Shown here piece by piece: positions 53,648-53,927 of a stretch of DNA of 64,000 bases. The stretch spans positions 496,001 through 560,000 of the forward strand of contig CP072660.1 of NCBI GenBank assembly GCA_029637525.1, in the 5' to 3' direction. Origin of the DNA: Desulfurococcaceae archaeon MEX13E-LK6-19. GTDB taxonomy: Archaea; Thermoproteota; Thermoprotei_A; Sulfolobales; Desulfurococcaceae. The translations under genes and the position numbers were made by a program. How positions within the stretch are numbered: the stretch's first letter is position 1; every line of letters starts with the position of its first letter. A model generated the notes under the pieces. That model did not search any database. It saw only the letters and a list, made by a program, of their open reading frames with translations, and was not told where the DNA came from.

Positions 53648-53764
53648 ATTATTGTAATCATGTAAAGTCGTATGGTTTTTCTGTGTAAGCCTAAACTAAA
53701 GAAACCTTATAACACCCCAACGCTTTAGAAAATAGATAGAGCCAAGTAGGCAATGACATCTGGT

Positions 53765-53927
53765 GGGCCCGTAGCTCAGCCAGGCAGAGCGGCGGACACC
53801 CCTCAGGGGGTTGGCCGAGGCTCCAGACCATACTACGGGTCTGAAGACCTTATGGGATGACTTAGGTCTGGAGAGTGTGCCGGGAGAGACCCGTAGGTCG
53901 GGGGTTCAAATCCCCCCGGGCCCACCA
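53765..53927 (+). tRNA. tRNA-Trp(CCA) with two introns
   Basis: Exon 1 53765-53795, intron 1 53796-53819 (24 nt, between positions 30 and 31), exon 2 53820-53826 (GCTCCAG, holding anticodon CCA at 53823-53825), intron 2 53827-53888 (62 nt, 37/38), exon 3 53889-53924, encoded CCA 53925-53927. Intron 1: CGGC/GCCG central helix, bulges GGA (GG|A) and AGG (AG|G). Intron 2: CTCC/GGAG central helix, bulges AGA (AG|A) on both sides. Mature acceptor GGGCCCG/CGGGCCC and T-arm GGGGG-TTCAAAT-CCCCC are perfect. A short intron-spanning frame here is not a gene. Confidence 0.93.

Follow-up and report, generated by a model that had tools for sequence, protein, structure and literature searches.

An intron of the tRNA-Trp gene in Thermoproteota very probably acts as a box C/D-type guide for methylation of its own tRNA

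The tRNA-Trp intron of Haloferax and Pyrococcus is a guide that targets C34 and U39 (PMC4090602, PMC7994747, PMC2584109); the same three papers trace the guides of Haloferax volcanii and Pyrococcus abyssi (sR50) to Clouet d'Orval 2001, Bortolin 2003 and Singh 2004. PMC2584109 puts the number of archaea with this arrangement at 29 or more, and its main text leaves them unnamed. We analysed the tRNA-Trp gene of the Desulfurococcaceae archaeon MEX13E-LK6-19, whose genome is a single contig of 1.91 Mb, within a window of 64,000 nucleotides (contig CP072660.1, positions 496,001 to 560,000); all coordinates given below are those of the window and refer to the + strand. With high confidence we read the second intron of this gene (intron 2) as the form that the dual-guide box C/D RNA of the tRNA-Trp intron takes in Thermoproteota, one that very probably guides methylation of its own tRNA, judging from sequence, conservation, covariation, box spacing and replacement guides. 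To our knowledge, the work on the intron guide published from 2001 to 2003 was confined to Euryarchaeota.

The tRNA-Trp(CCA) gene occupies positions 53765-53924 and contains two introns. Exon 1 (G1-G30, 53765-53795) supplies the acceptor, the D-arm and the 5' half of the anticodon stem. It is followed by intron 1, 24 nt inserted at 30/31 (53796-53819), which plays no part in the guide and is missing at loci L012, L019, L022 and others; relatives lacking it show GGCGG|GCTCCAG across the joint of exons 1 and 2. Exon 2 (G31-G37, 53820-53826) carries the anticodon CCA at 53823-53825, with the target C34 at 53823. Intron 2, the proposed box C/D-type guide, is 62 nt long and lies at the canonical site 37/38 (53827-53888). 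Its borders were set by relatives without intron 2, which read GCTCCAG^ACCCGTAGG, and these also gave the border of exon 3 (A38-A73, 53889-53924), which was otherwise delimited from the sequence. The 3' side of the splicing motif, GGAG plus the bulge AG^A (53883-53889), has CUCC at 53821-53824 as its partner, and GGAGNG^A is conserved at the 3' site of intron 2. With default settings ARAGORN did not recognise the two-intron gene (53765-53924), and a comparison of the gene with the curated Rfam families gave nothing above the gathering score, tRNA-like matches being sub-threshold only. In two relatives, L016 (G023) and L018 (G014), the intron at 30/31 is about 0.75 kb long; that of L016 (L016:943-1482) encodes a 179-aa LAGLIDADG protein (PF14528, E 1.3e-9), that is, a homing-endonuclease gene within a tRNA intron.

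The original prediction held that intron 2 carries two perfect complements to its own exons, and both are exact. The first pairs CTCCAGACC (53821-53829) with GGTCTGGAG (53865-53873) over 9 bp (duplex 1). Its 5' strand CUCCAGACC comprises the anticodon loop and the first 3 nt of the intron, and its 3' strand GGUCUGGAG is the guide towards C34. The second pairs CTACGGGT (53833-53840) with ACCCGTAG (53889-53896) as described and is longer than first noted: CTACGGGTCT at 53833-53842 and AGACCCGTAG at 53887-53896 form 10 bp (duplex 2), with CUACGGGUCU as the guide strand and AG^ACCCGUAG, which runs across the 3' splice site and includes C39 (53890), as the target strand. Both duplexes span a junction, duplex 1 taking in three intron nucleotides and duplex 2 two, and both of these extensions covary. 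The two euryarchaeal duplexes, in the 2001 work of Clouet d'Orval, reportedly span exon-intron junctions as well. It had also been remarked that both helices formed at once would be a pseudoknot, and this is sound: in several relatives one of the strands joining duplexes 1 and 2 is 0-1 nt long and the other 2-3 nt. Within one molecule the two helices are therefore unlikely to coexist, and two antiparallel duplexes in one canonical particle would be a misfit.

Covariation in related genomes had been suggested as a check, and both complements of intron 2 turned out to be conserved in relatives and to covary strongly. A covariance model (R1) made of duplex 1 and the small stem, with duplex 2 left out, matched 132 of 214 genomes within the order and, in a sample of the phylum, 152 of 300, the latter matches apparently including Nitrososphaeria-like and Bathyarchaeia-like genomes. 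The order-wide consensus begins with CUCCAG-ext, a linker, CUAYGGGUC, NNNN, GA, CC..GG and GAUGA, and continues with 7 nt including ext', CUGGAG, a tail and GGAGNG^ACCCGUAG. In duplex 1, the 3 nt after CUCCAG pair with the 3 nt before CUGGAG in 104/111 instances (37 distinct introns), a number never reached in 20,000 permutations (maximum 81/111), and these intron-intron triplets switch jointly (AUC:GAU, UUC:GAA, UCA:UGA, AGC:GCU and others). In duplex 2, the two guide nucleotides that follow GGGU have the final two nucleotides of the intron as partners in 73/74 instances (37 introns; maximum 65/74 in 20,000 permutations). Compensatory changes were found in every helix among 98 model-aligned copies, with 192 double-change cells against 52 expected from shuffling and a covariation score of 0.272 against 0.086 for shuffled alignments, values reached in 0 of 500 shuffles; as for all covariation counts given here, the sequences are related and not independent, and the number of events is overstated. 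Slid-register controls on the same 98 copies collapsed. Duplex 2 is absent from the model, so the alignment cannot have imposed the covariation seen in it. Since the intron nucleotides beside the exons covary too, we conclude that both helices form in the unspliced precursor. Covariation by itself would also fit a structural role for the helices. A GGUC:GACC hairpin as the sole cause of conservation was rejected: its C is replaced by U, A or G in step with the final nucleotide of the intron, and GACC is constant.

Between the two guides the pattern NNGA-CC(n)GG-GAUGA is nearly invariant in the 98 copies, with stem and loop varying in length. It makes a textbook kink-turn with a C-stem, the 3-nt bulge GAU and tandem GA, and its letters give box D' (NNGA) and then box C' (GGAUGA). 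In the window, the degenerate box D' is AAGA (53844-53847), whose conserved GA letters occur in 98/98 and 97/98 copies. The C-stem CC-UUAU-GG follows at 53848-53855; it is paired in 99% of cells and its changes include CG to GC. Box C' is GAUGA at 53856-53860, made of the 3-nt bulge GAU and GA. The C'-like GGATGAC lies where it had been placed, GGATGA being conserved and AUGA present in 97-98 of the 98 copies, and the distance from box C' to CUGGAG is constant at 7 nt. The statement that the N+5 rule misses position 39 did not survive, as it had used the wrong box. The CTGA at 53841 is present where it was placed, but it is kept in only a few relatives and not conserved as a D box, and CUGA was therefore rejected as box D'. 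From the conserved D' NNGA, 3 nt further on, the fifth nucleotide upstream is G53839, which pairs with C53890, that is C39. The spacing GGGU-5 nt-GA is kept in 85 of 98 copies. As predicted from these elements, the C39 module is complete in the Desulfurococcaceae archaeon genome; the term remnant finds no support for it and is only a possibility for the C34 module.

For position 34 the same statement was partly right. In the window genome the expected box D site (53876-53879) reads UGUG and has no GA, and the nearest relatives also lack the box D GA, showing UGUG or GGAGUG with a minimal tail. Many other relatives do carry NNGA there: among the 29 with a long 3' tail, 15 have it at the N+5 offset for C34, and GA occurs at any other tested offset in at most one of these copies. 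This is good evidence for a putative box D for C34 in the NNGA-bearing lineages. In the window, the predicted C34 module has its duplex and no recognisable box D. That intron 2 has no complete C or D box was borne out, since D and D' are degenerate and no box C (RUGAUGA) was found before the first guide inside the intron. At loci L005, L033, L197, L198, L199 and L200 of the f2 family the anticodon-loop complement is lost or reduced; the same loci keep the kink-turn and most of them the C39 guide, from which it follows that the two guide arms are separable and evolve separately.

A box-C-like AUGA was found in the 5' leader of the gene (53753-53756), 8 nt before G1, at a fixed position and specific to tRNA-Trp. 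In its general form, (A/G/U)UG(A/C) and mostly GAUGA, the element ends 8 nt before G1 (9 in one clade). As (D)UGM it is present in 62 of 69 intron-bearing tRNA-Trp genes of the order and in 0 of 12 intron-less ones; for strict AUGA the numbers are 47/69 and 0/12 (Fisher p 8e-6, with relatedness ignored and the intron-less genes all from one family). Pyrolobus-like and Saccharolobus-like genomes with intron 2 lack the element. TATA-like boxes, located about 25-35 nt upstream of it, make its transcription probable. A general promoter or start-site element of tRNA genes is unlikely, since only 1 of 30 leaders of other tRNAs (five of these genomes) has it; its likeness to the archaeal (box-B-like) initiator may leave room for a promoter role. 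The leader AUGA could be the missing box C and restore the order C-D'-C'-D over the precursor. We put forward only tentatively, as a possible but rather doubtful arrangement, a split guide whose box C sits in the leader and whose D', C' and D boxes sit in the intron, the 5' half of the tRNA separating C from the first guide. If it existed, the entire pre-tRNA-Trp, still unprocessed, would serve as the active particle, and methylation would be forced ahead of 5' trimming and splicing. The 3' trailer shows no conserved GA, and a box D there that would partner the leader AUGA was rejected; pairing of the leader with the anticodon or the intron guide was not consistent and was rejected too. At several loci (L019, L006, L023, L010, L346) the last nucleotides of the leader are complementary to the 3' end of pre-tRNA-Trp (discriminator and trailer), lengthening the acceptor stem by 4-6 bp, and these pairs covary (GCUGAU:AUCAGC, GUAGU:ACUAC, GCAGU:ACUGC, UGAU:AUCA); UAAU:AUUA is a further covarying pair of this kind. 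As far as we found, the leader element has not been described before and is the novel part of the finding; specific to tRNA-Trp, it would be easy to test in Sulfolobus.

In the Acidilobaceae-like family f6 many genomes have a tRNA-Trp without intron 2. Three of these (G046, G047, G076) contain a stand-alone RNA that has the boxes C, D', C' and D, some of them degenerate, and a closing stem, and in which GUCUGGAGC stands directly before D and N+5 falls exactly on C34. A fourth stand-alone C/D RNA for C34 is present in G130, which retains intron 2 with a damaged duplex-1 extension (AAA against UCU). Having both an intron guide and a stand-alone RNA, G130 (L078/L340, L307) is a possible intermediate stage of replacement. 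Most other intron-less relatives gave no recognisable stand-alone guide in a pattern search with a sizeable chance background, most raw matches of such searches being chance. Lineages that lack the intron and have a stand-alone guide are natural experiments on the persistence of tRNA introns.

For protein binding, methylation and the order of events we infer the following. The D' (NNGA)/C' (GAUGA) kink-turn would recruit L7Ae and then Nop5 and fibrillarin; a fibrillarin gene is encoded in the host genome (E 6e-109). The stretch upstream of D' would pair with AG^ACCCGUAG and put C39 at N+5, and the stretch downstream of C' would pair with CUCCAG and the first intron nucleotides, presenting C34 for methylation. 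The splicing motif draws on exon bases that also belong to the two guide duplexes, and constrained prediction gave fold energies of -65.4 (S1), -62.0 (S2), -59.4 (splicing fold) and -67.0 kcal/mol (free); with shared bases and comparable predicted stability, guide duplexes and splicing motif must alternate. Each duplex requires a precursor that is still unspliced and is incompatible with the bulge-helix-bulge fold, so methylation would precede splicing and would either deal with the two sites in turn or take place between two precursor molecules. The likelier course is that the guide acts sequentially or on a second precursor, as reported for Haloferax. An intron of the same kind is present in G201 (locus L187; genome of 2,225,959 bp), which we take to be S. 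acidocaldarius DSM 639. The tRNA-Trp of S. acidocaldarius bears Cm34 by mass spectrometry, Cm39 does not appear for it in the text, and C34 and C39 of P. furiosus tRNA-Trp are listed as predicted targets (PMC7668247).

An intron with a bulge-helix-bulge motif must carry some complement to its exons, and the finding would be trivial if chance or this by-product of splicing accounted for it. The motif does require CUCC:GGAG, a 4-bp complement, but the splicing GGAG is a separate, second copy at 53883-53886, to which the 9-bp and 10-bp helices come in addition. When the intron was dinucleotide-shuffled 20,000 times, 53 shuffles gave a helix of 9 bp or more from exon 2 and 224 gave one of 8 bp or more to exon 3, the two never together; as the helices also covary, which refutes a chance origin, we give this explanation practically no credence. 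The complements might instead be structural: an alternative fold with a regulatory role would mask the anticodon arm and guide no methylation, with splicing delayed until a protein (e.g. L7Ae) rearranges the fold. The sharing of bases between guide duplexes and bulge-helix-bulge, the similar energies of the constrained folds and the several relatives without box D would all agree with such a role. It is nevertheless improbable, for it predicts neither the fixed 5-nt spacing from GGGU to GA, nor a D-box peak exactly at N+5 from C34, nor stand-alone C/D RNAs with a C34 guide after intron loss.

Closer to the dual-guide explanation, and in fact a version of it whose likelihood overlaps with that of the whole, is the idea that intron 2 is a former dual guide in which only the C39 arm now works, Cm34 being absent or supplied by a separate guide. 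UGUG in place of NNGA at the box D for C34 points in this direction, and several f2 genomes that lost duplex 1 and kept duplex 2 and the kink-turn indicate that the arms can decouple. Duplex 1, however, is perfect in the window (9 bp) and still covaries in close relatives without box D, which leaves this version somewhat unlikely, though with appreciable weight. Our preferred reading of intron 2 remains that of a dual guide for its own tRNA.

The resemblance to the haloarchaeal tRNA-Trp intron guide, raised in the original prediction, is upheld by conservation, covariation, the invariant kink-turn and the stand-alone replacement guides. A search for euryarchaeal counterparts via L085 and L094 gave chance matches only. 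The same arrangement with eroded boxes across Thermoproteota, including G201, suggests an ancient archaeal device. Intron 2 and the ordinary archaeal bulge-helix-bulge introns have the GGAG + AG^A 3' site and the CUCC helix in common; unlike intron 2, the latter usually measure 12-25 nt (PMC4090602) and carry neither exon complements nor a kink-turn. The stand-alone C34 C/D RNAs of intron-2-less relatives (L256, L265, L326) resemble it in the GUCUGGAGC guide with N+5 on C34, and differ in having genes of their own, a full set of C, D', C' and D boxes and a closing stem; they would act in trans on the mature-type sequence. With the euryarchaeal guide of Haloferax volcanii and Pyrococcus abyssi (sR50) intron 2 shares the gene, the canonical intron site, the targets 34 and 39, two guides flanking a D'/C' kink-turn in the order D', C', and the overlap with the splicing motif. 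By the published descriptions it differs in that D' is only NNGA, C' is GGAUGA within a stem-loop kink-turn, box D is absent or NNGA, and the intron is without a box C, the 5' leader having a box-C-like AUGA instead; furthermore, target 39 is C in the window tRNA-Trp and U in Haloferax. The principle of an intron guiding its own tRNA is already known, and intron 2 is a variant of the euryarchaeal tRNA-Trp intron guide.
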